DNA from: Candidatus Pelagibacter communis | Lineage (GTDB): Bacteria > Pseudomonadota > Alphaproteobacteria > Pelagibacterales > Pelagibacteraceae | Length of the DNA: 64,000 nt | Direction: 5' to 3' | Assembly (NCBI RefSeq): GCF_001180225.1 | Contig: NZ_CVST01000034.1 | Location: forward strand, 62,001-126,000 | Part shown: piece by piece, positions 812-49,491 of the stretch | Layout of the letters: each line of letters opens with the position of its first letter | How positions within the stretch are numbered: the stretch's first letter is position 1 | The notes under the pieces: generated by a model | The model's database searches: none | What the model saw: only the letters and a program-made list of their open reading frames with translations | What the model was told of the DNA's origin: nothing | Translations under genes and position numbers: made by a program

Positions 812-1591
812 ATTAAGATAATCTAACCAATTCTCTAATTCTCTCATTCTGGAAATTTTATCTAATTTTTTGTTTTCTATTTCTATATTTTTAATGTGAT
901 CATCAATATGATTTTGGTCTTTAAAAGCACCACGTTCTATAAGTCTATCTTTTCTAAAAATAATTAAGTTAATCATCTTGTTGTAAGTAATTTCTGGATG
1001 ATACTGAAGGCCCCACACATCACAAATTCCAATTTTAAAATTTAAACCTTGAACGTTATTAATTGGGTTCGAAGCTAGCAGTTTCGAATTTTCTGGAAGA
1101 GTTACAACTTCATCAAAATTAAATGCTGGAGTATTAAATTTTTTATTTTTGTTTTTATATAATGGATGATTTAAACCATTTTTATTAATTTCAATATCTC
1201 TTGCAATCCCTCTGTGTGACCCTTTCTCAGCTTTTTTTACTTCGCCACCAGCGGCGGTTACTGCAACTTGCATCCCCCAACAAATCGCTAGAACTTTTTT
1301 AATTTTTTTCTGACACTCTTTCATAAATTCTATTTGTCTTAAAATTTCAGGTGTCTTGTTATAAATATTTAAACTACTTCCACCCCAAATAAGACCATCA
1401 TAACTTTCTAATGGATCAATATTCTCGCTTATCTTTTCATCTGAAGATGGATTAACTACATCTATATTTAGTTGATCAGTAAAATGAAAAAGACTATGTT
1501 TTAAGCTTTCTGTATGAGTTTGAATACCTGCTTCTGTAAAACTTTGATTTTCCTCTTGTAAATTACCTTCTACCACCAAAATTTTCTTCAT
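803..1591 (-). CDS. Class I glutamine amidotransferase (GMP synthase-like GATase domain protein)
   Basis: A 262-residue stand-alone GATase1 protein. The nucleophile elbow is AICWGMQ with Cys104, and the His-Glu pair is QYHPE (His198, Glu200), so the glutaminase triad looks intact. There is no synthetase domain, which makes it a member of the GMP-synthase-like amidotransferase group whose acceptors are mostly unknown. A charged helical C-terminal tail follows residue ~210. Its ATG overlaps the stop of the iron alcohol dehydrogenase gene (TAATG), so it is the last gene of the sugar-transport operon and is probably translationally coupled. The physiological substrate cannot be told from sequence; gamma-glutamyl hydrolysis is an alternative. 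Confidence 0.8.
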
Positions 1592-2742
1592 TAAAATAAC
1601 TCTCCTGAAATACTTTTTTTATACATTTCTTTTAAATCATCTTTTGTTATTTTTTTTGGATTGCCTCCTGTAGATGGATCTTCAAATGCCATTAAAGAGA
1701 GTTTTTCTAAATCAATTTCATTACAGTCCATAACATCTGAAAGTTTATGAGGGATGTTTAATTCTTTACGCAAATTTAATATCCATTCTAAAAAGCTTTC
1801 AAATGTACTATTTAGATTAAGATAATTACAAATAGATATAATTCTGTTTTCAATAACTGATTTATTGAAAGTTAAAACATAAGGCATAAATATCGCGTTA
1901 CTTAAACCATGATGTACATCAAACTGTGCATTTATCGGATGACTTAGAGAATGTATTGCACCAAGACCTTTTTGAAAAGCAGTAGAGCCCATGCTAGATG
2001 CTGCTAACATTTCAGATCTAGCTTCTATGTTCGTACCATTTTTATAAACCTCTATTAAAGAATTTTTAATTAACCTCATACCCTCAAGTGCGATACCATC
2101 TGCCATTGGATGAAAGCCAGGTGCACAAAAAGCCTCAAGATTGTGAGCAAGTGCATCCATTCCTGTTGCAGCTGTTATTCTTGGTGGAAGATCTTTGGTT
2201 AAATTTGGATCTAAAATTACGATAGAAGGTAAAATTTTTGGATGAAAAATTATTTTTTTTATTCCTGTTTCTTCATTAATGATGGCTGAAGCTCTTCCTG
2301 TTTCTGAGCCTGTTCCTGCGGTAGTTGGAACCGCTATAATTTGAGAAATTTTATTTCCATCAGCTCTTGTCCAATAATCTCCTATATCCTCAAAATCCCA
2401 TATAGGTCTTTTTTGACCACACATAAAAGCTATTCCTTTCCCAACATCTAATGCACTACCTCCTCCAAAAGCAATTACTCCATCACAGTTTTTTTCTATA
2501 TATAAAGTGACCCCTTCCATTACGTTTTTTCCAGTTGGGTTTCCTGAAAATTGTGAAAATACTTGTAAATGATCAAAGTCTTTTTTTAATTTTTCAATTA
2601 CTTTTGAAGTCATTGGTAGATTTAAAAGATCTTTGTCAGTTACAAAAAGTGGACTTTTAATTTTTAAGCTCAAACAGGCGTTTGCAAGATCTTCTATTTT
2701 ACCTGCTCCAAACCAAATAGTAGTAGGATAATTCCAATTCAT
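1591..2742 (-). CDS. Iron-containing alcohol dehydrogenase
   Basis: A 383-residue protein of the Fe-ADH superfamily, the usual length. It shows the NAD-binding GGGSALDVGK motif near residue 95, the AVPTTAGTGSE block, and metal-binding elements GMDALAHNLEAF, HSLSHPIN and HHGLSN. The family oxidises alcohols or reduces aldehydes with NAD(P). It sits between a GH63-like glycosidase and an amidotransferase, downstream of a sugar ABC transporter, so a sugar-derived alcohol or glycerol-type substrate is plausible but unproven. The ATG at 2742 lies 51 bp after the glycosidase stop. Class is secure, substrate unknown. Confidence 0.88.
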   Translation of the reverse strand: MNWNYPTTIWFGAGKIEDLANACLSLKIKSPLFVTDKDLLNLPMTSKVIEKLKKDFDHLQVFSQFSGNPTGKNVMEGVTLYIEKNCDGVIAFGGGSALDVGKGIAFMCGQKRPIWDFEDIGDYWTRADGNKISQIIAVPTTAGTGSETGRASAIINEETGIKKIIFHPKILPSIVILDPNLTKDLPPRITAATGMDALAHNLEAFCAPGFHPMADGIALEGMRLIKNSLIEVYKNGTNIEARSEMLAASSMGSTAFQKGLGAIHSLSHPINAQFDVHHGLSNAIFMPYVLTFNKSVIENRIISICNYLNLNSTFESFLEWILNLRKELNIPHKLSDVMDCNEIDLEKLSLMAFEDPSTGGNPKKITKDDLKEMYKKSISGELF

Positions 2743-2793
2743 ATTATTTTTATAAAAAGAATATATATATTTGATTAATTAATCACTTAAAAA

Positions 2794-4050
2794 TTAATTA
2801 TTGATTAAATCTAAATATAATGCGGCAGACCAAGAAAAATTATTAGCTCCATAAGGAGTTCCTGATTTACAACTGTAGTATTCATGAAAATCCTTCTCAT
2901 GTATTAAATCCAATGTGTGTGATTTTATTTTATTGGCAAATTCAAGATCTTTTTCTAATAATCCTTTATATAAAATCCAGTTACAATTAATCCAAACAGG
3001 TCCTCTCCAATACCTTATCTCCTCAAAATATTTGCTATCAGGCTTTATTGACGAAAAGAAATATTTTTCATTCGAATTATATTCTTTTAAACTTTGAATT
3101 ACCGAGTTATTTATTTCTTTATTTTGAATATCTGCAAACAAAATAAAATAATTTGTAATAGAAGAGATTTCTAATGTTTGCTTATTTAAAACATCATATG
3201 AGTAAAATGAATTATCACCTTTGTTATATAAACTAATTAATTTATTCTCAGTTTGTGTTATTTTTTTTTGTATTGATTTGCATTCAATATTATTTTTTGT
3301 TGCAACATAGACTAGATCTTTGCAAGCTTTCAAAAATAAAGAATTAAAACCTATATCAGCGACATTAAACATTGAAATATCATATAGCTTTTCAGGATTA
3401 TATTTTTCATTTCTGAACTGATTTAAAAGAGTGATGTAACAATCATAGTCCCTTTTAAGTGGTCGTACATCGCTACTTGAAACATCTAAATCTCTTCTTT
3501 TGTATTCAAGATTTTCATCAATTAAAATTTTACTTAAAGGAAAATCCCATAAAGGTGAATTATCATTGCCACTTTCCCATGGATGTAATATAGAAACTAA
3601 ACCAGTATCATTTGGGTCTCTATATTTGTAAAACCATTCTAAATAATTTTTTGTTTTTTTTACTAAATTCAAAATTCTTTCCATTTCACTAGAACTAAAT
3701 TCATGCTTATCCAACATTAATTTTAAAATACTTGAAACTATAGGAGGTTGAGTTATTCCAGATGATGGAATTTTTTCACCACACTGCCAAGTATTATGAT
3801 TTGGAAAATAATTTTCATCCTTTTGATGAAACAAAATATGAGGAACCATACCATCAGACCATTGTCCCTCGAACAACTTTTCTAACTCAACTATTGCGTA
3901 TTCTTTATTAAAATAAGAATAACCGAGCGCTATATATGCTGAGTCCCAATTCCATTGAGCTGGGTACAACTTATTGTTTGTAGGCAGAGTGTATCCCTCA
4001 CACCTATTATTTAATAAAATATTCTCAGCTTCTCTTTTTAACAAACTCAT
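2794..4050 (-). CDS. GH63-like glycoside hydrolase (mannosylglycerate/glucosylglycerate hydrolase type)
   Basis: A 418-residue (alpha/alpha)6-barrel-type hydrolase without a visible signal peptide, so cytoplasmic. The block HPWESGNDNSPLWDFPLS near residues 157-174 matches the ESG-DNSP-WD signature of bacterial GH63 mannosylglycerate/glucosylglycerate hydrolases, and the C-terminal YGANNFSWSAALYLDLI is also typical. RYWRGPVWINCNW is the other conserved family block. Its ATG overlaps the stop of the upstream permease (TAATG), so it is coupled to the sugar transporter and probably acts on the imported glycoside. Hydrolysis of glucosylglycerate, mannosylglycerate or glucosylglycerol would fit a marine osmolyte, but this is inference; trehalase-like activity is an alternative. 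Confidence 0.78.
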   Translation of the reverse strand: MSLLKREAENILLNNRCEGYTLPTNNKLYPAQWNWDSAYIALGYSYFNKEYAIVELEKLFEGQWSDGMVPHILFHQKDENYFPNHNTWQCGEKIPSSGITQPPIVSSILKLMLDKHEFSSSEMERILNLVKKTKNYLEWFYKYRDPNDTGLVSILHPWESGNDNSPLWDFPLSKILIDENLEYKRRDLDVSSSDVRPLKRDYDCYITLLNQFRNEKYNPEKLYDISMFNVADIGFNSLFLKACKDLVYVATKNNIECKSIQKKITQTENKLISLYNKGDNSFYSYDVLNKQTLEISSITNYFILFADIQNKEINNSVIQSLKEYNSNEKYFFSSIKPDSKYFEEIRYWRGPVWINCNWILYKGLLEKDLEFANKIKSHTLDLIHEKDFHEYYSCKSGTPYGANNFSWSAALYLDLINN

Positions 4051-5243
4051 TAACCCTTAACGCTCCCTGATGTTAATCCACTAACTAAATATTTTTCAAA
4101 ATAAACAAAAATAAATAAAATTGGCAAAGTTACAACAACTGAACCAGCCATCAAATATTGTCTAGGCGTTTCAGCTCCAACATTTAAAAACTGTATTGCT
4201 CTTGATAATGTAAATGAGCTAGGACTGTCCAAAAACATTAGTGAAAATAAAAATTCATTCCAAGCAATCATAAATACATATAACGCGACAGATGCAATTG
4301 CTGGTAAACTTAAAGGTAAAATGATTTTAACAATTATTCCAAACCAATTTTGTCCATCCATTATACCTGCTTCTTCAAGTTCTTTTGGTATACTTTTGAA
4401 ATATCCTTGGAGCATATAAATTGCAACTGGCAGTGTTGTAGCTGTATAAATAATTAACAATCCAAATACAGAATTTCTTAGACCTAATTGACTAAAAACA
4501 GTGTAGAGAGGAATTACGAGCACAATAGCTGGAAACATATATATAATTAAAATAGAAGTAGATAAAAAATTTTTTCCAAAAAAGTTTAATCTTGCAACTG
4601 CATAAGCTGCTGGGATCCCAAGCAATAATGTAATTATAACCGTACCTACTGAGACAATTGAACTATTAAGCATATACTTGCCAAAATTATATTCTGTAAA
4701 AACTACAATATAGGATTTGAATAAGGTTTTTATATCTTGTGTTAAATCAACGCTGAAATCTAAAGGATTAATTAATAAAAGAGCTTGAGTTTTGAAACTT
4801 GTTACTAACATCAAATAAAATGGGAATAAAATTACAAAAGAAAAAAAGATTATTCCAAACAAAGTTAAAAAATCAAAAAATATAATTTGTGCTGAAAAAT
4901 CATAACTAAAATGTTTCTTGTTATAATTAAATAGCTTATTAACAAAAAATAATAAGATTAGAAATGTGCCTATATAATGCCAAATAGGTAAAGAACCATT
5001 AATGAAATAATCAATCAATACAAATATAGATGCTAGTAAAATTACTTTAAATAACTTGTTTAATTTTTTACTTAAGAAAATTGAAATAATAGAAATTATA
5101 ATTCCACTTAAAAAATAAAAATTGAAATTTAAAGTTTTAAGTTCAATTCCTTGTAAAGTAGAAAGAATTTTCCAAATAGATATTAAAGAAAATAAAAAAA
5201 ATGAAGAAATTAAACTGAAAGTGATAATTGATTTAACTCTCAT
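4050..5243 (-). CDS. Sugar ABC transporter permease, MalG type, with extra N-terminal membrane segments
   Basis: A 397-residue inner-membrane permease. The C-terminal ~275 residues are a standard MalG-type core, with the EAA loop EAGIMDGQNWFGIIVKIILP that docks the ATPase. The first ~120 residues hold about four further hydrophobic segments (roughly 5-27, 40-58, 66-86, 89-106) that ordinary MalG proteins of about 280 residues lack. It overlaps the upstream MalF-like permease by 11 bp and shares a TAATG junction with the downstream glycosidase. With the MalF-like partner, the binding protein and the ATPase at 7985-9061 it forms a complete CUT1-type importer. The substrate is not determined by the sequence. 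Confidence 0.88.
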   Translation of the reverse strand: MRVKSIITFSLISSFFLFSLISIWKILSTLQGIELKTLNFNFYFLSGIIISIISIFLSKKLNKLFKVILLASIFVLIDYFINGSLPIWHYIGTFLILLFFVNKLFNYNKKHFSYDFSAQIIFFDFLTLFGIIFFSFVILFPFYLMLVTSFKTQALLLINPLDFSVDLTQDIKTLFKSYIVVFTEYNFGKYMLNSSIVSVGTVIITLLLGIPAAYAVARLNFFGKNFLSTSILIIYMFPAIVLVIPLYTVFSQLGLRNSVFGLLIIYTATTLPVAIYMLQGYFKSIPKELEEAGIMDGQNWFGIIVKIILPLSLPAIASVALYVFMIAWNEFLFSLMFLDSPSSFTLSRAIQFLNVGAETPRQYLMAGSVVVTLPILFIFVYFEKYLVSGLTSGSVKG

Positions 5244-6492
5244 TGGCTCTTTTCCCTATCAGCTTAAAATAAATTAACATGAAAAATAAAAGTAATAGTA
5301 CAATCACCATTGACACAGCAGATCCCATACCAATATTTCCTATTGAAAATCCCTGTTCATAAACATTTATTGGCAGTGTTCTAGTACCTGATGCACCACC
5401 TGTTAATAGAAAAATATCTTCAAACTTGTTAAAATTCCAAATAAATCTAATCATAAATAAAATTGAAATCACTGCTGTAATCTGTGGCAATGTTATATTC
5501 ATAAATTTTGTGTAAGGACCTGCTCCATCAATATCTGCCGCTTCATAAAGTTCTTTAGGAACTGCTTGAAGTCTTGCTAAAATAAAAAGGAAAGCCAAAG
5601 GAAAATATCTCCAGATTTCAAAGATAATAACAGTTGTTAATGCTAATCTTAATTTAAATTCAAAACCGAAAACAAAAATAGATACATACTTTTGACCCAA
5701 TAAATTTATTGGCTTATCTATTATACTATAATTCAGTAATAGATTATTTAAAGTGCCACTATTAGGATCTAATAATAGTTCCCATGTAAACGCCAAAGCC
5801 ACAACAGGAGCTACATAAGGAAACAATAACGTACTTCTAACAAAGCTTCGACCTCTAAACTTTTGATTTACCATTTGGGCTGACAAAATTCCAAAAACAA
5901 TTGCACCCACTGTTCCAAAAAAAGTATAATAAAATGTTGTTAATAATAAATCTTTAAATTCATAATTTGTGATTACTTTTTTAAAATTTGACAAAGTAAA
6001 ATCACTTGTCAAAAGAATGTTATCTGCTTTTCCTTTTAAATTGGGTTTATTTAATTTAAATTGTTTTTTATCAATTTTTTCACCATTTTTTGTCTCAAAA
6101 AAAATTACAAATTGCTCTCTGTATTTTTTTGACCAATTACCAAAATCACACTGAACTTTATTTGATAGAAACTTACATCTCTGATCTAAATCAATTGGTT
6201 TAACATTACTTGGGAATTTATCGTGGAATTTAACATCTCTAATATCTTGAATTAAGGAACTATTTCTTAATTTATAGATAATCTTAATTTTTGTATCTTC
6301 GTTTTTAATAGATTTAACTATTTTTTTAGCTCTTGGCTCTGGAATTCTTATATCTTTTAATTGAACTTCTTTAAAACTAATCCAAACATTTGAAAATATT
6401 GGAAATAATACTATTGCAAATACAATTAGAACTGCTGGCAAAGTTAAAGCATAAGCAGTTCTTTTTTCTATTTTTGAAAGTGAATTACTCAT
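5233..6492 (-). CDS. Sugar ABC transporter permease, MalF type
   Basis: A 419-residue permease. TM1 lies near residues 14-36 and is followed by a ~135-residue polar, probably periplasmic insertion before the five C-terminal membrane segments. The EAA loop reads EAADIDGAGPYTKFMNITLP. A long P2-type loop is known in MalF itself. It is separated from the binding-protein gene by a strong GC-rich hairpin (6499-6522) and overlaps the MalG-type gene by 11 bp. It forms the transmembrane heterodimer with that protein. Confidence 0.88.
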   Translation of the reverse strand: MSNSLSKIEKRTAYALTLPAVLIVFAIVLFPIFSNVWISFKEVQLKDIRIPEPRAKKIVKSIKNEDTKIKIIYKLRNSSLIQDIRDVKFHDKFPSNVKPIDLDQRCKFLSNKVQCDFGNWSKKYREQFVIFFETKNGEKIDKKQFKLNKPNLKGKADNILLTSDFTLSNFKKVITNYEFKDLLLTTFYYTFFGTVGAIVFGILSAQMVNQKFRGRSFVRSTLLFPYVAPVVALAFTWELLLDPNSGTLNNLLLNYSIIDKPINLLGQKYVSIFVFGFEFKLRLALTTVIIFEIWRYFPLAFLFILARLQAVPKELYEAADIDGAGPYTKFMNITLPQITAVISILFMIRFIWNFNKFEDIFLLTGGASGTRTLPINVYEQGFSIGNIGMGSAVSMVIVLLLLFFMLIYFKLIGKRANES

Positions 6493-6498
6493 AAAAAA

Positions 6499-6522
6499 AG
6501 CGGATAATTAATATTATCCGCT
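6499..6522 (-). terminator. GC-rich hairpin between binding protein and permease genes
   Basis: A perfect 10-bp stem AGCGGATAAT / ATTATCCGCT with a 4-nt loop, flanked by A and T runs, so it can act on either strand. It lies between the binding-protein stop (6540) and the permease start (6492) in the transcribed minus direction. Placement suggests partial termination or mRNA 3'-end protection that raises binding-protein mRNA over permease mRNA. Confidence 0.8.
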
Positions 6523-6539
6523 TTTTTAAAAAATTAAAA

Positions 6540-7872
6540 TTAATTGAACTGTGCTAATGCAGTATTGATCATATCAACTGCTTCATCAACATCAATTTGA
6601 TCATCAATATATAATCTTGTTATTCTATTAATGAATTGAGAATTGATAACTTTAGAAGCTCTAGAAAGTTCACCTTCTTTAACTCCCCATCTATTAGCAG
6701 TATCTAAACCAGCTACAATGTTATCGATAACATCTGCTGAATAAAGATCAGTTAATGGAGCTTTTCTATCTACTCCAACTGGAAGTTTTGACCAAGCTTT
6801 AGTATACGCAGCTGGATCACTTGCATTACCTCTTCTTACAGGAAATTTTCCTTCAGGAGCAATTGCTAAAGTTGAAGTATATCCTTCATCCATAGAATAA
6901 AGAATAAACTGTTTAGCTTCATCCGTATCTGCATCAGCTGTTATACCAAAGTATCTTACATCTGCCCAAGCAGCACCTTTTTTATTGTTCGGTCCACTAA
7001 AGTTTGTAATGAAACCAGTTTTTGATGCTAACTCGCTTGATGTTGGATCATCATTTATTGTTGGAGGAGCTGAGTCTCTTAATCCCGCTAACTCATCCAT
7101 AATAAATGGAGACCAGATAATCATTGGAGTTTTACCTGCAAAATAAAGTTCTCTAGATTGCTTCCAGTATAATTCACCTTCAGGACTAGCTTTTGCAATT
7201 GTTTTGTAAAACTCTAAAGCTTTTTTAAGTTTGTTTCCTTGTTTTTTAATACCACCTTTTTTAACTACGTTAACTCCATTAGCCAATAATACATGTTCTA
7301 AAACCTGACTCATGAAGTTTTCGTCTGTTTTTGTAGCAGCAACAAATCCAAACATATCATTTGATGACAGCGTTTCTATTGCTTTAGTGATATTTGCATA
7401 ACTAGTTGGTGGCTCTAAACCAGCTTTCTCAAAAAGATCTTTTCTATAAACGATCATTTGAGTCCAACCATCAACTGGAACAGCAGCAATTTTTGATCCT
7501 TGCTTAGCCATATTTAAAGCACCAGGTGCAAAAGTTTTCTTACCTAATTCTTTAACAACATCATTATTAGCATCAACATCTAAAATTCCTGCTTCAGCCC
7601 ATGGCAATACATATTGTAGTGTATGATAAATTACATCAGGTAAATCACCTGCTGCAGCTGCAGCTGTTGCTCTTTTACCTAATTCTTTTTCATCGATTGG
7701 AATAACTTCAACTGCAATACCAGTTTTTGCTTCAAAGGCTTTAGCCATATCTTCTTGCTTCGCCATTCTTGCTGGTTGAGTTTCAGTTGTCCAAAACTTG
7801 ATATCTGCAAAAGCAACATTGTTTATAAAAAATGTTACAGCAGATAATAATATTAAAGTTTTTTTTAAACAT
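6540..7872 (-). CDS. Sugar ABC transporter substrate-binding protein, apparently frameshifted in the signal peptide
   Basis: The mature domain (open from 7766 and extending in frame further upstream) is a family 1 solute-binding protein of the UgpB/MalE type, about 440 residues with leader. The real start appears to be the ATG at 7872, preceded by the Shine-Dalgarno AGAGGT. It begins MFKK, but the run of eight A's at 7859-7866 throws it into the wrong frame. With seven A's it would read MFKKTLILLSAV and run through a normal signal peptide ending near NNVAFA, into DIKFWTTETQPARM and the rest of the protein. No ATG, GTG or TTG in the main frame restores the leader. Either the sequence has a homopolymer error or this copy is a phase-off or broken allele. 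A GC-rich hairpin follows its stop. Confidence 0.85.
7859..7866. repeat. Eight-base A/T homopolymer that breaks the binding-protein reading frame
   Basis: Eight consecutive T on the plus strand, A on the coding strand, directly after the second codon following the ATG at 7872. Seven would join the Shine-Dalgarno/ATG to the signal peptide and mature protein. It is a candidate slippage site or sequencing-error site. Confidence 0.9.
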
Positions 7873-7984
7873 AATTACCTCTTGTTAATTATTTTTTTTA
7901 AACCTTAATATTTTTTAGAAAAAATTTCTTATGCAATAGTGTCATCCCTGTTATGGGGTAATTTTAAAAACTATAAAAAAACCT

Positions 7985-9061
7985 TTATTTAAAGGCTAAA
8001 TTATTGCTATCGAATAAATGGCATTTGCTCAGATCAAACCCCAAACTAAGACTATCTCCAACATTGACTTTACTAGCTCCATCAGTTTGAACCACTAAGG
8101 GCTCTCCCTCTTTTTCAAGATATAAAAAAGTAGATGAACCTAATTTTTCAATCACGAAAACCTTGCTCTCCCAGCATTTTTCACCACTATTTATCAAGAT
8201 ATGCTCAGGTCTGATACCAATCTTTACACTATCGCCTGGCGAAACTTTATCTGAAGTTTTTGGAACAATAATTTTTCCTTGTCCTGAAATTTCAACTTCA
8301 GTTCCTGAATTATTAGAACTTATAACTTTAGAATTAATAAAGTTCATCTTTGGTGAACCAATAAACCCACCTACAAATAAATTTTCAGGTTCGTTGTAAA
8401 GTTTTAAAGGTGATCCTTTCTGAGAAACAATACCTTGATCTAATACAACTATATCATCTGCAAGTGTCATTGCCTCTGTTTGATCGTGTGTAACATAAAT
8501 CATTGTTGCATTTAATTGATCATGCAATTTAGCTAATTCTACTCTCATCTGAACTCTTAAAGCTGCATCTAAGTTGGACAAAGGTTCGTCAAACAAAAAT
8601 ACTTTTGGTTTTCTTGTAATGGCTCTACCAATTGCAACTCTTTGTCTTTGTCCTCCTGATAATTGTTTTGGTTTTCTCTCTAAGTATTCTTCAATTTGAA
8701 GAATTTTAGCAGCCTCCATAACTCTTTCTGTGATTTCTTCTTTAGATTTTTTTTCAATCTTTAAACCAAAAGCCATGTTGTCAAACACAGTCATGTGTGG
8801 ATACAAAGCATATGACTGAAAGACCATTGCAATATTTCTTTCTTTAGGAGGAAGGTCATTTACAACTTGTCCATCGATTGAAATTGTTCCTGAATTAATT
8901 TCCTCTAAGCCTGCAATCATTCTTAACATTGTTGATTTACCACATCCACTTGGCCCAACCAATACAGTGAAAGATTCACTTTTAATATCTAGAGACACAT
9001 CTTTAATCACATGTGTAGATCCAAAAGATTTATTTATGTTCGAAATATTTATCTCAGCCAT
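7985..9061 (-). CDS. Sugar ABC transporter ATP-binding protein, UgpC/MalK type
   Basis: A 358-residue MalK/UgpC-like ATPase: Walker A GPSGCGKST near residue 36, signature LSGGQRQRVAIGRA, Walker B KVFLFDEPLSNLD, switch His in THDQTEAM, and a C-terminal TOBE/OB region from about residue 240. It is the first gene of the minus-strand sugar operon, 112 bp ahead of the binding protein and divergent from tmm with an 81-bp shared upstream region. It energises the MalF/MalG-type permeases. MalK-like proteins sometimes serve several transporters, but the neighbours make a dedicated role likely. Confidence 0.92.
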   Translation of the reverse strand: MAEINISNINKSFGSTHVIKDVSLDIKSESFTVLVGPSGCGKSTMLRMIAGLEEINSGTISIDGQVVNDLPPKERNIAMVFQSYALYPHMTVFDNMAFGLKIEKKSKEEITERVMEAAKILQIEEYLERKPKQLSGGQRQRVAIGRAITRKPKVFLFDEPLSNLDAALRVQMRVELAKLHDQLNATMIYVTHDQTEAMTLADDIVVLDQGIVSQKGSPLKLYNEPENLFVGGFIGSPKMNFINSKVISSNNSGTEVEISGQGKIIVPKTSDKVSPGDSVKIGIRPEHILINSGEKCWESKVFVIEKLGSSTFLYLEKEGEPLVVQTDGASKVNVGDSLSLGFDLSKCHLFDSNNLAFK

Positions 9062-9142
9062 CTTAAATTAATATTTATATTGTATTTTCAGTTTATATTT
9101 GATTATATTTGTTTAGCATATTTATAAACTGGAGAAAACACA

Positions 9143-10474
9143 ATGAGCAAAATTGCAATTATTGGAGCAGGACCTTGTGGTCTATCAATGTTAAGAGCTT
9201 TCGAACACTTAGAAAATAAAGGTGAAGAAATTCCCGAAATAGTTTGTTTTGAAAAGCAAGAAGATTGGGGAGGTTTGTGGAACTATAATTGGAGAACAGG
9301 TAGCGACCAGTATGGAGACCCAGTTCATAATAGTATGTATAGATATTTATGGTCAAATGGCCCTAAAGAATGTTTAGAGTTTGCGGATTATTCTTTTGAT
9401 GAACATTTTGGACAACCAATTCCTTCTTTTCCGCCAAGAGAAGTTTTGCAAGATTATATTCTTGGAAGAGTAAGCAAAGGCAAAATTAAAAATAAAATAA
9501 AACTAAATACAAGAGTTACAAATGTAACTTTCAGCAATGAAAAATTTGAAATTACCTATCAAGACAAAGTTAAAGATGAAATTTCAAAAGATACATTTGA
9601 TTATTTAGTTGTTTCTACTGGTCATTTCTCAGTTCCTTTTATTCCTGAATATAAAGGAATGAATTCTTTTCCAGGAAGAATAATGCACTCACATGATTTT
9701 AGAGATGCTGAAGAATTTAGAGGAAAAGATGTGATTGTTTTAGGAAGTAGTTATTCAGCTGAAGATGTTGCTCTACAGTGTAATAAATACGGGGCTAAAA
9801 GTGTAACTATTGGATATCGAAATGCACCTATGGGATTTAAATGGCCTAAAGGTATGAAAGAAGTTCATTATCTAGATAGACTGGAAGGAAAAAAAGCAAT
9901 TTTTAAAGACGGTACTGAGCAAGATGCAGATGCAATAATCTTGTGCACAGGATACTTGCATCACTTTCCATTTTTAGATGAAAGCATAAAGTTAAAAACA
10001 CATAACAGATTATATCCGCCAAAATTATATAAAGGAGTTGTTTGGCAGGATAATCACAAACTTTTATATCTTGGTATGCAAGACCAATTCCATACTTTTA
10101 ATATGTTTGATTGCCAAGCTTGGTTTGCAAGAGATGTAATTATGGGAAAAATTAAAATGCCAAGTGCTGATGAAATCAATAAAGATATCAATAAATGGGT
10201 TGCTATGGAGGAAAAATTAGAAAACCCAGATCAAATGATTGATTTTCAAACTGAGTACACAAAAGAACTTCATTATATGTCTGATTATCCAAAAATAGAT
10301 TTTGAACTAATCAGAAAACATTTCAAAGAATGGGAACATCATAAAGTAGAGGATATCTTAACTTACAGAAACAAATCATTTTCATCACCTGTCACAGGTT
10401 CTGTTGCACCTATACACCATACCCCATGGGAAGCTGCAATGGACGACTCGATGAAGACTTTTTTAAATAAATAA
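9143..10474 (+). CDS. tmm: Trimethylamine monooxygenase (flavin-containing monooxygenase)
   Basis: A 443-residue bacterial FMO matching the Tmm group in length and sequence. It has the FAD site GAGPCG at residues 8-13, EDWGGLWNYNWRTG, the FMO identifying motif FPGRIMHSHDF, the NADPH-site VLGSSYSAED near residue 197, and the C-terminal MFDCQAWFARD. It oxidises trimethylamine to trimethylamine N-oxide with NADPH and O2 in the cytosol, and related methylated compounds such as dimethyl sulfide can be side substrates. A GGAG Shine-Dalgarno precedes the ATG. It lies near the TMAO transporter and Tdm genes but is transcribed alone, divergent from the sugar operon and convergent with gpsA. Confidence 0.93.
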   Translation: MSKIAIIGAGPCGLSMLRAFEHLENKGEEIPEIVCFEKQEDWGGLWNYNWRTGSDQYGDPVHNSMYRYLWSNGPKECLEFADYSFDEHFGQPIPSFPPREVLQDYILGRVSKGKIKNKIKLNTRVTNVTFSNEKFEITYQDKVKDEISKDTFDYLVVSTGHFSVPFIPEYKGMNSFPGRIMHSHDFRDAEEFRGKDVIVLGSSYSAEDVALQCNKYGAKSVTIGYRNAPMGFKWPKGMKEVHYLDRLEGKKAIFKDGTEQDADAIILCTGYLHHFPFLDESIKLKTHNRLYPPKLYKGVVWQDNHKLLYLGMQDQFHTFNMFDCQAWFARDVIMGKIKMPSADEINKDINKWVAMEEKLENPDQMIDFQTEYTKELHYMSDYPKIDFELIRKHFKEWEHHKVEDILTYRNKSFSSPVTGSVAPIHHTPWEAAMDDSMKTFLNK

Positions 10475-11437
10475 TTAATAGTTAACTTTTAATTTTTTAT
10501 TTTTTGTGATTGCACTTAAAAGTGCATGCATAAGTGGTATTTTATTTTTATTAATTTTTTTTAAGATGTAGTGTGCAATCTCTCTAGCCAGATCTGCGCC
10601 CTCAACTGTATCATTTTTCATAAATTTATTTTTTGCAATTTTAAAAGTATAGCCTTTTCCTAAGTATTCACCCATTTTACTGTTTCTTCCTCCAACTGCG
10701 CTAACATATAAATCGCCCACTCCAGCTAACCCATGAACTGTTTCTTGTTTGCCTCTAAAATATTTTATTAAATACTCCATTTCATCTAACGATTTTCTAA
10801 ATAAAGCTGAAGCAGTATTTTCACCTTCACCTGATCCAATAATCATTGAATATATATTTTTAATTGCAGATGAAAATTCAACACCTTTTACATCACTTGA
10901 ATATTCTGTTTTGTAATATTTAGTTGAGATTAATTTTCCTATATTTTTTGCAATATTAATATTCTTATTTGCTATCACAGTGTAAGTTTTTATTTTTTTT
11001 GCCAACTCTTTTGCAAGACAAGGTCCTTTTAGAACTGAAATATTTAAATTTTGAGTACCTTTGCTTAGTTGTTCTGACATAGTAATAATTTTTTTATTAT
11101 TTCGATCATATTTAAGACCTTTGGTCAAAACGAGAATAGAAACTTTTCTCTTTATATTTTTTAAATGCTGTCTAACCATTTCAATTCCAATAGAACTTAC
11201 TCCAACAACAACTAAGTCCCATTTTTCATTAAGTAAGTCTGATGAAAATTTTTTGACAGAAACTCTTTTAGATAACTTAAGTTTTAATGCTGGATGAAAT
11301 TTGTTTTTTGTTATTAATTTATTTAATAGATCTTTGTTGTAAGGCTCGGTTAAAGTTACTTTATGATTATTATCAGCAAGGGGAAAAGTGAATGCAGCAC
11401 CCATTGCACCCGCTCCTATTATTAAAACTTTTTTCAT
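10475..11437 (-). CDS. gpsA: Glycerol-3-phosphate dehydrogenase [NAD(P)+], GpsA type
   Basis: A 320-residue GpsA-family protein: Rossmann start IIGAGAMGAAF, catalytic-region Lys in FSSAIKNIYSM, GLAGVGDLYVSAVGGRNSKMGEYLG, and VEGADLA near the C-terminus. It interconverts glycerol 3-phosphate and dihydroxyacetone phosphate. It follows glycerol kinase by 8 bp on the same strand, so here it most likely serves glycerol use rather than (or as well as) phospholipid synthesis. It abuts the tmm stop convergently. Whether a second, housekeeping gpsA exists cannot be seen from this window. Confidence 0.9.
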   Translation of the reverse strand: MKKVLIIGAGAMGAAFTFPLADNNHKVTLTEPYNKDLLNKLITKNKFHPALKLKLSKRVSVKKFSSDLLNEKWDLVVVGVSSIGIEMVRQHLKNIKRKVSILVLTKGLKYDRNNKKIITMSEQLSKGTQNLNISVLKGPCLAKELAKKIKTYTVIANKNINIAKNIGKLISTKYYKTEYSSDVKGVEFSSAIKNIYSMIIGSGEGENTASALFRKSLDEMEYLIKYFRGKQETVHGLAGVGDLYVSAVGGRNSKMGEYLGKGYTFKIAKNKFMKNDTVEGADLAREIAHYILKKINKNKIPLMHALLSAITKNKKLKVNY

Positions 11438-11445
11438 ACGACTAG

Positions 11446-12924
11446 TTACGCTAAAGTTTTTTTAATTGCTAGTTTCCATCCTGCTAAAAGTTCGTTTCTC
11501 AATGTTTTTTTAATATTTGGTGAGAAAACACGATCTTTTTTCCACATATTTTTGATTTGATTTAAAGATTTATATTCTCCTATTTGAAGCCCAGCTAATA
11601 AAGCTACACCCAAAGCAGTTGTCTCTAATATTTTTGGTCTGATTACTTTTAAATTAATAATATCAGCTAAAAATTGTGTGAACCAATTGTTGGCAACCAT
11701 TCCACCATCTACCTTAACTATACTTGGTTTCAAACCATCCTTATTCATTGAATCAAACAAATCAAAACTTTGATATCCAACAGATTCTACCGTCGCTCTC
11801 ACTATACTTTTCCAATCACTGTCTCTTGTTAGTCCTGTGATAACTCCTCTTACATCTGGTCTCCAATAAGGCGCCCCCATTCCGCTAAAAGCTGGTACAA
11901 CAAAAACACCATCATTAATTTTAGAGGATTTTGAAATCTTTTCAGTTTCGGGTGCTTTTTTAATCAATTTTACTTTATCTCTCAGCCATTGTAATCCTGC
12001 CCCCGCTATAAAAATTGAACCTTCCAAGGCGTAAGTATTTTTATTATTTAATCGATAGCAAATAGTAGTCAGTAATTTATTTTTTGAATTAATTTTTTTT
12101 GGACCAGTATTCATAATAACAAACGCACCAGTACCATATGTGCTTTTTATAGACCCTTTTTCAAAACAAGTTTGTCCAAATGCTGCAGCCTGCTGATCAC
12201 CAAGAACTGCAGAAATTGAAATTTCAACTCCTGTAATTTTTTTATCTGTTTTTCCAAAATTATCTGCTGAGTTCTTTACCTCTGGTAAAATTTTTTTTGG
12301 AATATTTAGTTTTTTTAAAATTTCTTTGTCCCATTTATTGTTATTAATATTATACAGCATTGTTCGGCTTGCATTAGATGCTTCAGTTAAATGCTGCTTA
12401 CCTTTTGTTAATTTCCAAATTAAAAATGTATCTACAGTCCCAAACAATAAATCATTTGAACTAAGAAGTTTTTTGGAAATTTTAACATTGTCTAAAATCC
12501 ATTTAATTTTTGTAGCTGAAAAATATGGATCTATAAATAATCCGGTTTTATTTCTAAATAGATTTTCATAATTTTTTTTCTTAAGTAATTTACAGTAATC
12601 TTGGGTTCTTCTATCTTGCCATACAATTGCATTATAAATTGGCTTTCCTGTTTTTTTATTCCATAGAATTGTTGTTTCCCTTTGATTTGTAATTCCAATT
12701 GTAAGTATGTGACCTTTTAATTTTTTGGCTTTATTTATTACTTGTTTTAAAGCTTTAAGTGTTGTGGACCAGATCTCATTTGGATTATGTTCTACCCAAC
12801 CATTTTTTGGAAAATATTGTTTAAACTCATATTGTGAAACAAAAACAATATTACCTTTTGTGTCAAATAAAATTACTCTTGAAGATGTTGTTCCTTGATC
12901 AATAGAAATAATAAATTTTTTCAA
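11446..12924 (-). CDS. glpK: Glycerol kinase
   Basis: A 492-residue FGGY kinase of normal length. It shows the N-terminal SIDQGTTSSRVILFD, ITNQRETTILWNKKTG, IVWQDRRT, the GDQQAAAFGQ ATP-site block, and MGAPYWRPDVRGVITGLTRD. It phosphorylates glycerol to sn-glycerol 3-phosphate in the cytosol. The start codon is TTG at 12924, four bases after the TAG of the fused ABC permease gene, which suggests translational coupling to the TMAO-type transporter operon. gpsA follows. The pair would take glycerol to dihydroxyacetone phosphate. The TTG start is unusual compared with the ATG starts nearby. Confidence 0.94.
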   Translation of the reverse strand: MKKFIISIDQGTTSSRVILFDTKGNIVFVSQYEFKQYFPKNGWVEHNPNEIWSTTLKALKQVINKAKKLKGHILTIGITNQRETTILWNKKTGKPIYNAIVWQDRRTQDYCKLLKKKNYENLFRNKTGLFIDPYFSATKIKWILDNVKISKKLLSSNDLLFGTVDTFLIWKLTKGKQHLTEASNASRTMLYNINNNKWDKEILKKLNIPKKILPEVKNSADNFGKTDKKITGVEISISAVLGDQQAAAFGQTCFEKGSIKSTYGTGAFVIMNTGPKKINSKNKLLTTICYRLNNKNTYALEGSIFIAGAGLQWLRDKVKLIKKAPETEKISKSSKINDGVFVVPAFSGMGAPYWRPDVRGVITGLTRDSDWKSIVRATVESVGYQSFDLFDSMNKDGLKPSIVKVDGGMVANNWFTQFLADIINLKVIRPKILETTALGVALLAGLQIGEYKSLNQIKNMWKKDRVFSPNIKKTLRNELLAGWKLAIKKTLA

Positions 12925-12928
12925 TGGA

Positions 12929-16182: not shown

Positions 16183-16734
16183 TTAAAAATTCTTAATATA
16201 GTAAACTCTTGTATCAATACCTGTGCTTAAAAAACTTAAGGCTTCTCCACTGACAGTGATACTTTCATCAATTCCTACATTGTTTCCACTTACGGTAAAA
16301 CCTGCATAACACTTACCTTTTTCTTGATCCCACTTAACAAATGTTTCATCAATTTTATTTCCATTTTTTGTGTAAATCTCATGTGCTCTAAAATTTAAAA
16401 AATTAGCTCCCATAATTGCACGTTGTGGAATTAATTTTGTAGCTTTACATACTTGCTCATATACTTCATCAGTTAATCTATAATGATCAGTTCCATCGAA
16501 GGAGACTAATATTCCTGAAGGTAATTTAGATATCAACTCACTTAATTTTCTCTCTTCAGCAATTCTTTGCTCTTCCAATTTCATTTTTTCTACAAGCTCG
16601 TCTCCCTCTCCAAATATTCCATTTAAAACAGCAAAAAAAGCTATCACTATCGCTGTAACAATAACTAAACCAATAAATTGCTTTGTTGAGTTTGAATTGT
16701 CTTCAGTTTTATTTAAACTATTTTCTTTTGACAT
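16183..16734 (-). CDS. Membrane-anchored protein of unknown function in the TMAO transporter operon
   Basis: A 183-residue protein not recognised as a known family. The ATG at 16734 is chosen because it overlaps the stop of the MORN gene (TAATG); an in-frame start upstream would add a basic 19-residue stretch inside that gene. A polar N-terminus is followed by one hydrophobic segment (about residues 21-42), a charged helical stretch (KMKLEEQRIAEERK), and a ~110-residue soluble domain, probably periplasmic, with two Cys (in QVCKAT and KCYAGF). It lies between the binding protein and ATPase of the transporter. Function unknown. Confidence 0.75.
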   Translation of the reverse strand: MSKENSLNKTEDNSNSTKQFIGLVIVTAIVIAFFAVLNGIFGEGDELVEKMKLEEQRIAEERKLSELISKLPSGILVSFDGTDHYRLTDEVYEQVCKATKLIPQRAIMGANFLNFRAHEIYTKNGNKIDETFVKWDQEKGKCYAGFTVSGNNVGIDESITVSGEALSFLSTGIDTRVYYIKNF

Positions 16735-17111
16735 TACTCTTGTAACTTTCCGTTTACCCAAGTGCCTGATTTTTGTTTTCCGTCTGCCCAAGTAAATGTT
16801 CCTTGTCCATTCATAAAACCTTTAGACCATTCACCGTCATAAGTAGATCCATCTGGAAAAATCAAAATTCCTTTTCCACTCCACTCACTATTTTTAAATT
16901 CACCTTTGTAAATATATCCATTAGGCCATGTCTCAACCCCTTGACCTTCTTTTTTTGTTGCAACCCATTCACCTTCATAAGTTGTCTTATCTGTATAAAT
17001 CCATTTACCAAAACCATTTTCACAGTTTCCTTCTTTGCATCCTGTACTTCGAGCAAATGCAGCTGAGTTAATTAAAGAAATTAAAAATATGAAAATTAGA
17101 AATTTTTTCAT
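16734..17111 (-). CDS. Secreted MORN-repeat protein
   Basis: A 125-residue protein with a clear signal peptide (MKKFLIFIFLISLINSAAFA) and then three to four MORN repeats, seen as YEGEWVATKKEGQG, YKGEFKNSEWSGKG, YDGEWSKGFMNGQG and a last SGTWVNGK. MORN repeats form elongated beta-hairpin arrays, often at membranes. A Cys pair just after the leader (GCKEGNC) could form a disulfide. It follows the terminator hairpin behind the binding-protein gene and overlaps the next gene by one base (TAATG), so the two are probably made together. Its role in the transporter run is unknown. Confidence 0.82.
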   Translation of the reverse strand: MKKFLIFIFLISLINSAAFARSTGCKEGNCENGFGKWIYTDKTTYEGEWVATKKEGQGVETWPNGYIYKGEFKNSEWSGKGILIFPDGSTYDGEWSKGFMNGQGTFTWADGKQKSGTWVNGKLQE

Positions 17112-17136: not shown

Positions 17137-17167
17137 AAAAAAAAATCCCCCCCAAACAAGTTGGGGG
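17137..17167 (-). terminator. Rho-independent terminator behind the TMAO-type binding-protein gene
   Basis: On the minus strand, CCCCCAA / TTGGGGG forms a stem with a 5-nt loop, directly followed by a run of T's (nine A's on the plus strand at 17137-17145). It is 27 bases beyond the tmoX stop, ahead of the MORN gene, and should cut most transcripts after tmoX. Confidence 0.88.
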
Positions 17168-17193
17168 AGATTTTAATTTTTTAACTTTTACCC

Positions 17194-18138
17194 TTATTTA
17201 GTAAAAGGTTTCCAAACTGACTCGTTATCAGCTAACCATTTTTTAGCTGCATCTTCGTGAGTCATTTTATCAACATCAACTAAAGCTGCCATCGCACCAA
17301 TGTGACTTGTTGAGAATGACATCTTTTTAAATGCTGCTGCTGCATCTGGGTGAGTTTTTGGGAAATCCTCATGAACAGCTTTTTTCAAGTATCCATCAGG
17401 AGAACCACATTTACCATCACCACCATCTTCTGGTCTGCAACCCGCTGTATATGGAGGGAAGTCAATAAATGTAAAACCAGCACCATCTGTAAAGTTTGGT
17501 GTCCAGTTGAAGATTATAGTTCCTCTTCCTTCTTTTTCAGCAGCTGCTAATTCAGCCCAAAGTGCATCTGCACCTCCAGCAAATTTAACCCACCAAAGAT
17601 CACCTAAACCTAAAGCTTCAATTCTTTGCGGAATTAAATCACCATGCCAACTTTGAGGTCCTTCCAACATTCTTCCTTTTCCATCCGGAGAGTCAGGTGT
17701 TGTAAAGTTTTTAGCACAGTCTGGATTTTTTAAAGCTGTCCAATCTGGTAGACCTGGGCACAAACCTTTTTCAACAACCCAGTTTGGGTAACCCATATCT
17801 TCAAGAGTTCTTGCCTCATGATCACCCCAGTCAAGTAAACCACCTTTATCTAGAGCAGTAGTAAATGACTTACCGAACGCAGACTCCCATACTTCGTGAG
17901 AAATAGTTACGTCACCAATTCTGATTGATTCATAAACTGCTTGTGAGTCAGCGTTTACATATTTTACATTGTTACCCATACTTTCAAAAATTCCACCTAT
18001 AACGTAAGCCATTACAATTTGAGATGACCAGTTATGAGTTGGGATTACGATGGGCTTCTTGCTATCAGCGTTTGAAATTCCTGCAAAACTTACAACAGAA
18101 ATAACTAGAGCAGATAGTAATGAAATAATTTTTTTCAT
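17194..18138 (-). CDS. tmoX: TMAO/betaine-type ABC transporter substrate-binding protein
   Basis: A 314-residue periplasmic OpuAC-family binding protein with a signal peptide ending near ISNA (residue ~24). The mature protein is rich in Trp and Tyr (THNWSSQ, HEVWESAFG, PQSWHGD, FNWTPNF), as expected for the aromatic cage that binds a trimethylammonium or N-oxide head group. Four Cys (CPGL, DCAK, GCRP, KCGS) may form disulfides. It is divergent from the TMAO demethylase gene, which supports the TMAO assignment over choline or glycine betaine. A strong AGGGGGA Shine-Dalgarno precedes the ATG, and a terminator follows, consistent with very high expression. Confidence 0.85.
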   Translation of the reverse strand: MKKIISLLSALVISVVSFAGISNADSKKPIVIPTHNWSSQIVMAYVIGGIFESMGNNVKYVNADSQAVYESIRIGDVTISHEVWESAFGKSFTTALDKGGLLDWGDHEARTLEDMGYPNWVVEKGLCPGLPDWTALKNPDCAKNFTTPDSPDGKGRMLEGPQSWHGDLIPQRIEALGLGDLWWVKFAGGADALWAELAAAEKEGRGTIIFNWTPNFTDGAGFTFIDFPPYTAGCRPEDGGDGKCGSPDGYLKKAVHEDFPKTHPDAAAAFKKMSFSTSHIGAMAALVDVDKMTHEDAAKKWLADNESVWKPFTK

Positions 18139-46927: not shown

Positions 46928-48187
46928 TTATCCTAACTTAATATTATCTACTCCAACTAATTTGTTATAAATCCAGTAAATTACTAAAACTCCAGTTAAC
47001 AACATTAAACCCATTGCAGATGCAAAACTCCAATCCAAAGTTTGCTTCATATGAAATGCAATCTGGTTACTTATCAATGTTCCAGAAGCACCTCCTACCA
47101 ATGCTGGAGTAATGTAATATCCAATTGCTAATATAAATACTAACAAACATCCGGCTCCTATACCTGGAATAGTTAAAGGGAAATATACTTTCCAAAATGC
47201 AACAAAAGGAGTTCCTCCTAAAGATTTTCCTGCTCTCATTAAGCTTGGTGAGATCGTTTTCATCACACTGTAAAGTGGAAGAACCATAAATGGTAACAGT
47301 ATCTGTGTCATCGCCACATAAGTTCCAACTTTATTGTACATCATTTCTGGCCTGTTATCGTCTGCAACTAATCCTATCATGACAAAGAAATCATTAACGA
47401 CTCCCTGTTGTTGTAACAAAATCATCCAACTAGCTGTCCTAACTAAAAGTGATGTCCAAAATGGAAGAAGAACACAAATCATCAATAAATTTGAGTACTT
47501 CATAGGTAATGTAGCTAATAAATGAGCTATAGGATATCCCATTAAAAAACAAAATAAAGTTACAAAGAATGCAATTTCGAGTGTTCTCAGCCACAAAATT
47601 CTATGAATTCTTCTATCTTCATCAACTTGGGCAATGCTTCCATCTGGTGCATAATACATATCCATACCTTTAAGATATTTAGCTAATGTATAAGGCGGTG
47701 CAGTTCTCTTTATAGCTTGCCAATATTCAACTTTGCCCCAATTTTTGTGTACCTTCATCATCTGTTCTTTGATGCTAGCACTTTCATCTATTTTTTTTCT
47801 TTTAATATTTCTGAACAATCTTTTAGTTGTTGAATTAAAACCATTTTTTTCTTTATTTAATCTTTGACCAAGTTTTCCGTGTTCTTGTTTTTCAACAAGT
47901 GCCTTGTAGTCATAATAAAAACCAGCAAAAACTTCTTCTGATGGTAATTCTTTTCCATCCCATTTCTCCATTTCCTTAAACGTTTTAGGAAGCATGTTGG
48001 TTATCATTTTGTCATCAATACTTCTCGTAAACATTTCTCCGATTGGAAAAATATAAGTGATAACTAAAAATAATAATAATGGAGCTACAAGAACAAAGGC
48101 TTTGATTTTGTTCTTTCTCTCAGCTTTTTTTAAGCTTACTTCAAGTGGTATACCGTCAGTAGTTAATATTTTATTTTCTGAGCTCAT
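46928..48187 (-). CDS. Polyamine-type ABC transporter permease, PotB type with long first loop
   Basis: A 419-residue permease, longer than the usual ~290. TM1 (about residues 30-50) is followed by a ~150-residue polar loop, probably periplasmic, before the remaining five membrane segments. The EAA-type loop is RAGKSLGGTPFVAFWKVYFP. A hairpin (48193-48216) separates it from the binding-protein gene, and the PotC-type gene follows after 2 bp. It is the second case in this window of a permease with a long first loop. Confidence 0.88.
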   Translation of the reverse strand: MSSENKILTTDGIPLEVSLKKAERKNKIKAFVLVAPLLLFLVITYIFPIGEMFTRSIDDKMITNMLPKTFKEMEKWDGKELPSEEVFAGFYYDYKALVEKQEHGKLGQRLNKEKNGFNSTTKRLFRNIKRKKIDESASIKEQMMKVHKNWGKVEYWQAIKRTAPPYTLAKYLKGMDMYYAPDGSIAQVDEDRRIHRILWLRTLEIAFFVTLFCFLMGYPIAHLLATLPMKYSNLLMICVLLPFWTSLLVRTASWMILLQQQGVVNDFFVMIGLVADDNRPEMMYNKVGTYVAMTQILLPFMVLPLYSVMKTISPSLMRAGKSLGGTPFVAFWKVYFPLTIPGIGAGCLLVFILAIGYYITPALVGGASGTLISNQIAFHMKQTLDWSFASAMGLMLLTGVLVIYWIYNKLVGVDNIKLG

Positions 48188-48192
48188 AAAAA

Positions 48193-48216
48193 AAGGGCGG
48201 TTATAAAACCGCCCTT
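48193..48216 (-). terminator. GC-rich hairpin between binding protein and permease genes
   Basis: A perfect 10-bp stem AAGGGCGGTT / AACCGCCCTT with a 4-nt loop, flanked by A and T-rich runs, in the 63-bp gap between the binding-protein stop (48251) and the permease start (48187). It can act as a partial terminator so that the binding protein is made in excess. Confidence 0.8.
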
Positions 48217-48250: not shown

Positions 48251-49375
48251 TTAATTTAAACCTGCTTTCATTGCTTCCCATTTTTCACCAATCTCTGTTC
48301 CATAATCAGCCCAGAAGAACGGGTCTACTAAAAAGTAATTTTTAGTATTTTGTGGAGAAGTAGGCATTTGAGGCATCATTTCTGTTTTACCATCTTTGTA
48401 CCATGGCTCACCAGCTTTGATTATTTCAAGAGAAGATTTTCTCCATGGAGCGTATGCAATGTACTTCGCGCTACCTGCTAACATCTCAGTGTTAGTCATC
48501 ATCGCTAAAGCTTTCATAGCATTCTCTTGGTCTGGACCACCATCAACAAGTGCGAAATATTCATAGTCTAAACCTTGACCATCCCATACTTGTTTAATTG
48601 GAGCACCTTCACCAACTTCAGCGTTGAAGAATCTTCCATTCCAACCTGTTGCCATTACAACTTCACCTGCAACTAATAATTCAGGTGGTTGTGCACCAGC
48701 AGACCAGAATACACATCCTCCATTTGGATCTTCACAAAGTTCTTTAACTTTGTTCATAGCTCTGTCGATGTATCCATCTTTTTCTTCCATAAATCTATAA
48801 AGTCTGTCACCACCTTTACCCATTTTAACTCCATCAGCAGCTAAAGCGATTTCAAGGTTAGTTAAAGCACTTTTGTAGATAGCTCTTTTTCCAGGAAACT
48901 TTTTAGTATCAAAAAAGTCTTTGATAGTTTTAGGCTCTTTACCATCAAATGCTCTAGTATCGAACGCATAATTCCAAGAATATAAGATGTTTCCTACAGC
49001 ACATTCACTTGGCATTCCTGTGAAGAAGTCTTCACTTGCAGGAGTTCCATCTGGTGCAGCTGGGAAGTCTTTGTCAAAATCAAATTTAACAAATAAACCT
49101 TCATCACATCCGTTAATTGTATCAAATGCAAATAAGTCTATGATATCCCAAGTGATAGCACCTGCTTCTTTTTGTGCTTTAATTTCTGATAAACCACCAG
49201 AATAGTCAACCCAGTTGATATCTATTCCAAGTGCCTTAGCAGTTGGATCACCATACCCTAACTTTTGAGACTCTGTATAAGCTCCACCCCAAGATGCAAC
49301 TGTTACTGCAAATGCTGATGAAGTTATTGAAAGAGCAAAAGAAAGAGCAAGTAATAATTTACTTAATTTTTTCAT
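48251..49375 (-). CDS. Polyamine-type ABC transporter substrate-binding protein, PotD type
   Basis: A 374-residue periplasmic binding protein with a signal peptide ending near SSAFA (residue ~23). TVASWGGAYTESQ at the mature N-terminus is a PotD/F family start, and MATGWNGRFFNA is a typical central block. It has its own likely promoter in the gap to the ATPase gene (-35 TTGACT, -10 TGTACT), an AGGAGG-like Shine-Dalgarno (CGGAGGAATA) and a hairpin after its stop, all consistent with high expression. Ligand not determined. Confidence 0.9.
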   Translation of the reverse strand: MKKLSKLLLALSFALSITSSAFAVTVASWGGAYTESQKLGYGDPTAKALGIDINWVDYSGGLSEIKAQKEAGAITWDIIDLFAFDTINGCDEGLFVKFDFDKDFPAAPDGTPASEDFFTGMPSECAVGNILYSWNYAFDTRAFDGKEPKTIKDFFDTKKFPGKRAIYKSALTNLEIALAADGVKMGKGGDRLYRFMEEKDGYIDRAMNKVKELCEDPNGGCVFWSAGAQPPELLVAGEVVMATGWNGRFFNAEVGEGAPIKQVWDGQGLDYEYFALVDGGPDQENAMKALAMMTNTEMLAGSAKYIAYAPWRKSSLEIIKAGEPWYKDGKTEMMPQMPTSPQNTKNYFLVDPFFWADYGTEIGEKWEAMKAGLN

Positions 49376-49420
49376 TATTCCTCCGTTTAAACGTTAATAT
49401 AAATTAATTTATATAATTAA

Positions 49421-49460
49421 AGTACACCAAAATGAGTTAGTGAAGTCAACAGCTCATTTT
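49421..49460 (-). promoter_or_regulatory. Likely promoter with overlapping inverted repeat for the PotD-type gene
   Basis: On the minus strand, TTGACT (49449-49444) and TGTACT (49426-49421) are spaced by 17 bases, a good sigma-70 fit. An inverted repeat AAAATGAG (49429-49436) / CTCATTTT (49453-49460) surrounds the -35 box with a 16-nt centre, so a regulator bound there could block RNA polymerase. A weak terminator for the ATPase gene is the alternative reading. Confidence 0.5.
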
Positions 49461-49491
49461 ATCTTGTAAAGATTTGTATTTTTTGTTGAAA

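Follow-up and report, generated by a model that had tools for sequence, protein, structure and literature searches.

Cells of the SAR11 group rank among the most numerous on Earth and put much of their resources into binding proteins (SBPs), and we know of few regulators in these bacteria. If SBP excess followed a simple rule in the sequence, this would explain how unequal product amounts are obtained from streamlined operons. The window analyzed here is a stretch of 64,000 nucleotides from Candidatus Pelagibacter communis with a G+C content of 31%; Pelagibacteraceae assemblies are the closest named relatives of its polyamine-type SBP, which places it in SAR11. A first-pass annotation had noted GC-rich hairpins behind the SBP genes and read them as sites at which transcription is attenuated, so that the binding protein is made in excess.

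Hairpins behind the binding-protein genes of the window

Exactly 3 SBP-family Pfam matches were found among the 58 open reading frames scanned (62 were listed, of which 4 overlapping antisense frames were excluded from the scan). Behind each of them a stable G+C-containing stem-loop of -16.6 to -20.0 kcal/mol with 4-6 G-C pairs lies on the coding (-) strand, which confirms the original observation, including its claim to cover all binding-protein genes of the window (Table 1). The hairpins begin 12 to 34 nt past the SBP stop codon, and in all three a near-full U-tract directly follows the stem. Concerning the positions first proposed, 48193-48216 matched the stem found, 6499-6522 turned out to be the core of a longer stem, and 17137-17167 lay a few bases off a real hairpin. 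The view that each hairpin precedes the next operon gene held for the sugar and polyamine types, where the next gene on the same strand encodes a translocator (PF00528). Behind the TMAO-type SBP gene, a MORN-repeat ORF and no transporter subunit comes first, with ATPase and permease only further downstream.

Table 1. Binding-protein genes of the window, their hairpins and adjacent features
Feature	Position	Strand	Remarks
Sugar-type SBP gene (SBP_bac_8)	6540..7766	-	Pfam PF13416, PF01547
Hairpin 1, U-run touching permease ATG	6494..6527	-	15 bp, -16.9 kcal/mol
Permease gene downstream of hairpin 1	5233..6492	-	PF00528
TMAO/betaine-type SBP gene (OpuAC)	17194..18138	-	PF04069
Hairpin 2 with U-run	17142..17174	-	14 bp including G-U, -20.0 kcal/mol; aligned with four relatives
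MORN-repeat ORF, next gene past hairpin 2	16734..17111	-	PF02493
Polyamine-type SBP gene (SBP_bac_8)	48251..49375	-	PF13416
Hairpin 3, U-run touching permease ATG	48193..48216	-	10 bp, -16.6 kcal/mol
Permease gene downstream of hairpin 3	46928..48187	-	PF00528
Gap 5' of polyamine-type SBP gene, promoter-like TTGACT and strong Shine-Dalgarno site (GGAGG)	49376..49491	-	Conserved in orthologues

Two of these loci showed peculiarities of their own. The ATPase is separated from the TMAO-type SBP by a stretch (16183-17111, - strand) with the MORN-repeat ORF, the start of which resembles a signal peptide, and an ORF without Pfam match; in the relatives L062 and L063 the next ORF also has 125 codons. 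For the sugar-type SBP, the signal peptide, located upstream in the region 7760-7880 (- strand), shares the reading frame of the mature part, and there is no start codon in that frame. An ATG behind a good Shine-Dalgarno-like AGAGG sits one base out of frame, ahead of an A8 run. The cause may be an error in sequencing or assembly, or else the frame is truly interrupted.

That the hairpins stand out in this genome was borne out, as they are the sole intergenic sites in 64 kb with a perfect stem and a U-rich tail at -8 kcal/mol or better. The remaining sites of the perfect-stem scan were intragenic, none of them stronger than -10.2 kcal/mol. When neither a U-tract nor a perfect stem was demanded, one more hairpin reached -14 kcal/mol; it has -14.5, follows the gene 9143-10474 and lies within the convergent neighbour. 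An Rfam search of the window gave no match at gathering score, and a described RNA family was discarded as a candidate on these grounds.

Hairpin 3 was kept in 80/80 orthologous polyamine-type SBP loci (the best 80 of 389), while such a hairpin was found in 0/76 of the gaps upstream of the SBP gene in the same set. In these orthologues, the distance from its G+C core to the permease ATG was 7-9 nt in all 76 loci measured; left out were 2 of the 80 loci without a permease ATG in reach and 2 with another stem sequence. The longest U-run measured 7-9 nt in the 78 loci of this set with the common stem. L287 and L308 carry a different stem sequence in its place, which still pairs. RNAalifold detected pair-keeping double changes in 1, 3, 5 and 3 pairs of four ortholog groups, with some pairs broken, and covariation support for the SBP hairpins is modest. 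The polyamine-type gene had been credited with a promoter of its own. Here, a conserved promoter-like element was observed, with TTGAC in 79/79 usable upstream regions (best 80 of 389 orthologues, one too short) and a -35/-10-like pair in 63 of these 79. The Shine-Dalgarno energy of the gene in the window is -9.5 kcal/mol.

Occurrence across SAR11 and beyond binding proteins

The survey of SBP genes covered 153 loci from 41 genomes of the SAR11 order, representing five SBP families of the ABC and TRAP types and drawn from a longer list of matches. The score was the best single hairpin at most 90 nt past the stop codon, independent of U-tracts, with a threshold of -14 kcal/mol. A hairpin of this strength was found after 140/153 loci among the matches listed, while dinucleotide shuffles of the same stretches averaged -6.5 kcal/mol, and any of 20 shuffles reached the threshold in 27/153 gaps. 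At -10 kcal/mol or better, a stem-loop was present in 141 of the 153 listed loci and in all three window genes. As the genomes are related, these counts are not independent; counted by protein clusters, the hairpin was present in 24/28 (23 directly listed, the 24th by L123). A strict scan requiring a U-tract found hairpins of -10 kcal/mol or better at 94/153 SBP loci versus 10/443 background genes, several of the latter being SBPs themselves. Because it missed U-less hairpins, the U-independent scan was added.

Equal frequency of such hairpins at unrelated genes was not seen. In sampled stretches of five genomes plus the window, the threshold of -14 was reached by 22/28 recognized SBP genes versus 31/816 other genes, some of which proved to be SBPs by family searches. 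For codirectional gaps of 30-200 nt the corresponding numbers were 18/20 versus 12/117; four of these 12 are listed SBPs (L206, L208, L220, L223), yielding 22/24 versus 8/113 after correction by hand. We are aware of the fact that this correction moved hits only; the counts for all five-family matches in the window's own genome (14/15) and in the one-contig genome G003 (12/15) are fairer. Two more hairpin-bearing background genes turned out to be other SBPs (SBP_bac_5, PBP_like_2). In distant bacteria the signal was weaker, with z at or below -3 in 8/28 and 7/21 SBP loci versus 138/153 in SAR11. From this distant set, 9/60 loci without downstream sequence were skipped, L241 (own genome) and one protein above 700 aa were excluded, and two fragments (L202, L248) were included.

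Some SBP genes remained below the threshold. The iron-type SBP had only weak hairpins in both genomes checked (-11.7 and -13.0 kcal/mol), and the same was found for a single gene of the SBP_bac_3 family (-8.1) and for a gene matching Peripla_BP_6 weakly (-9.9). Where Peripla_BP_6 genes of the second SAR11 family stand in tandem, the hairpin was found in 0/10 loci; tandem genes of this type (L096-L105, L219, L222), all without the hairpin, lie 0-13 nt from one another or from the next gene. Under iron limitation, Candidatus P. ubique was reported to induce sfuC 16-fold, sfuB 10.4-fold and sfuA 5.0-fold (PMC2864753, available text). As the hairpins of the iron SBP are weak, this mRNA gradient is not creditable to a hairpin.

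In the same genomes the same hairpins were found downstream of rhodopsin (29/30 loci), GroEL (28/28 usable, 2/30 having been dropped for an unresolved frame) and AmtB (20/30), and a rule restricted to SBP genes was rejected on the basis of these controls. The rhodopsin, GroEL and AmtB proteins are abundant. It is thus more fitting to regard the hairpins as marking the 3' side of highly expressed SAR11 genes, probably as a general 3' element of high expression for which termination is only part of how it works. In genomes known from single cells only, it might flag highly expressed genes. GroEL is mostly not followed by a gene on the same strand, so lowering the next gene would not be the sole role of the hairpin.

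Further individual cases were recorded. The AmtB matches L394-L401 are open frames of about 720 aa, far above the usual AmtB length, and possibly represent fusion proteins; at least four of the eight lack a strong 3' hairpin. Strong 3' hairpins on non-SBP genes were observed at L156:3809-5167, L204:10528-11886, L169:8475-8891 and L163:7908-9182, in this order a GCV_T-domain protein, one unnamed gene beside an OpuAC-type SBP, a rubrerythrin and an isocitrate lyase. One relative carries GroEL in two pieces (G009:C8:41423-42645), the first with three in-frame stops, probably due to a sequence fault.

U-tracts, ribosome binding sites and mode of action

The U-tracts behind the hairpins were graded. 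Among the matches listed, at least 7 U in 8 positions were counted for 64/139 SBP hairpins, at least 5 for 91/139 and at most 3 for 29/139 (the core of the L123 hairpin could not be placed, hence 139 instead of 140), and L124 and L125 show A-runs instead of a U-tract. The median was 6 for SBP hairpins versus 8 for GroEL and rhodopsin, with at least 7 U after 28/28 GroEL and 29/29 rhodopsin genes and after only 6/20 AmtB genes. From the SBP stop codon to the hairpin the median distance was 12 nt. On the other side, the stem core lay at most 15 nt from the next ATG in 61/136 SBP hairpins among the matches listed, including 13 of the 28 U-poor ones with a measured distance. Both properties differ within SBP_bac_3. 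In the second SAR11 family the tails are U8 and the stems keep a distance of 17-26 nt from the ATG; in the window's family there are 2-5 U and the distance shrinks to 3-7 nt, which places the stem in the landing site of the ribosome. The next genes of 26 cluster representatives matched PF00528 (9), DctQ (7), DctM (2), ABC_tran (2) and BPD_transp_2 (2), the rest being other or none.

A clear-cut contrast became visible for the Shine-Dalgarno sites. Their energy had a median of -7.3 kcal/mol for 149 SBP starts (79% at -4 or better), +0.9 for 137 genes after an SBP hairpin (9%) and -0.1 for 720 background starts (24%). By protein clusters, the SBP had a stronger site than the next gene in 20/22. 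The first ATG was used as start, which is wrong for some genes including the sugar-type SBP. Sorted by distance from the stem, next genes with a site of -4 or better amounted to 0/46 at 26 nt or more, 3% of 29 at 16-25 nt and 18% of 61 below 16 nt; the scores of these nearest genes, 11 of which count as Shine-Dalgarno-bearing, result in part from the G-runs of the stem itself. The postulated shared design, a strong Shine-Dalgarno site combined with a following hairpin, was recovered by these data together with the 140/153 loci among the matches listed. The attenuation drawn from it stood in part only, as the hairpin is not specific for SBP genes and the 29 U-poor cases do not agree with termination alone.

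We consider it likely that the 3' hairpin ends and protects the mRNA of high-output genes and lowers the next operon gene by partial termination or ribosome blocking. The SBP gene would be translated from its strong Shine-Dalgarno site, and shortly past its stop codon the RNA is predicted to form a hairpin of high stability. If a U-tract lies behind the stem, a share of the transcripts would end there, and in all cases the hairpin should leave a 3' end that is poorly entered by exonucleases. Read-through transcripts would reach a next gene without Shine-Dalgarno site, and ribosomes should in addition have difficulty in entering if the stem is no more than about 15 nt away from the start codon of that gene. 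As a net result, the SBP is expected to exceed the membrane subunits of the same operon. Partial termination would be the simplest source of this excess. As sole mechanism it is doubted, given the U-less SBP hairpins. Ribosome blocking alone is doubted as well, since only 13/28 U-poor hairpins are near an ATG and the other 15 cannot be explained by it.

A tentative extension, which we hold to be possible at best, regards strong Shine-Dalgarno site and hairpin as a paired code for protein ratios, with the hairpin replacing the Shine-Dalgarno site before the next gene. The hairpin would then be the constant part, guarding the end of the mRNA and acting as a translational brake when directly adjacent to the start codon, and the U-tract an optional extra gained or lost by lineages, as the SBP_bac_3 genes of the two SAR11 families may illustrate. 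If this code were true, the most abundant proteins of uncultured SAR11 would be predictable from DNA by Shine-Dalgarno site and 3' hairpin.

Among the alternatives, pure transcription attenuation, the view of the first-pass annotation and of the model published for Clostridium, has some plausibility without being favored: every hairpin would act as an intrinsic terminator with some leakage, and the ratio of SBP to permease would depend on nothing but the strength of the U-tract. The U-runs at all three window hairpins and the 91/139 SBP hairpins with at least 5 U agree with it, and in Ruminiclostridium such attenuation was demonstrated for genes in this order (PMC9045158, available text). However, according to the same text a stem-loop without U tail failed to terminate there, while 29/139 SAR11 hairpins have at most 3 U, two of them with A-runs instead, and the Shine-Dalgarno contrast is left unexplained. 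We regard as rather unlikely that the hairpin is an end-guard only, protecting SBP transcripts that have been cleaved or terminated by Rho, with little effect on the next gene. This would fit a hairpin that is retained while the U-tract varies and that also occurs behind GroEL, mostly without a same-strand next gene, but not the rarity of Shine-Dalgarno sites on next genes, and protection does not need the constant stem-ATG distance of the polyamine-type orthologues (best 80 of 389).

Complete terminators, with SBP genes as separate units and the next gene under its own promoter, are quite improbable, common as full-length U-tracts are (64/139). The U-run touches the ATG at hairpins 1 and 3 and leaves no room for a promoter behind them; permease mRNA should arise by read-through or be initiated within the SBP gene, and a promoter at such a site would weaken this argument. 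Chance or base composition, for which a generic terminator scan of positions 1-20000 might speak with an unremarkable 12 sites versus 7.4 +/- 2.5 in shuffles, was ruled out by the window scan, the shuffled gaps averaging -6.5 kcal/mol and the 80/80 orthologous loci (best 80 of 389) versus 0/76 upstream gaps.

Comparison with known systems

Hairpins behind an SBP gene are familiar from E. coli, where REP hairpins between malE and malF are said to stabilize the upstream mRNA segment. REP elements are a shared repeated palindrome, whereas the SAR11 stems differ between SBP families as judged by eye, and a REP-type repeat was ruled out for this reason. Candidate structured RNAs of Candidatus Pelagibacter ubique were described by Meyer et al. 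(2009; PMC2704228). As given in its available text, the rhtB-type motif of the same lineage is a hairpin with a tail of 6-9 U in about half of the examples and a possible termination signal. That text describes no hairpins behind SBP genes and refers to intergenic regions of at least 100 bases, while most gaps between SBP and next gene analyzed here are shorter. A literature search, with subscription journals mostly outside it, found no paper on SBP hairpins in SAR11.

The closest counterpart is found in cellulolytic Clostridia, for which Wu et al. (2022; PMC9045158) described internal transcription terminators behind the SBP genes of ABC importers; the following comparison is based on its available text. 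Stem-loops between the 5' SBP gene and the translocator genes were reported for 87.3% of the long gaps of 5' SBP clusters. Their U content is variable, and it was proposed that the excess of SBP results from partial termination together with transcript stability. Measurements in Ruminiclostridium showed that such stem-loops terminate in part and that this depends on the U-tract. The authors predict the same stem-loops in E. coli and regard the mechanism as widespread. The SAR11 SBP hairpins resemble the clostridial ones in their reduced U content, seen here in comparison with GroEL and rhodopsin, although the three of the window have near-full U-runs. Unlike the Clostridia as described there, SAR11 also carries the hairpins after TRAP SBPs, rhodopsin, GroEL and AmtB, hardly any U-tract is left in 29/139 cases, and 61/136 stems are at most 15 nt away from the next start. 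Moreover, SAR11 pairs a strong Shine-Dalgarno site of the SBP gene with a missing one of the next gene. Clostridia thus provide the known kind of hairpin, of which SAR11 shows a variant, characterized by near-universal occurrence, by U-less and start-abutting forms and by the paired Shine-Dalgarno contrast.
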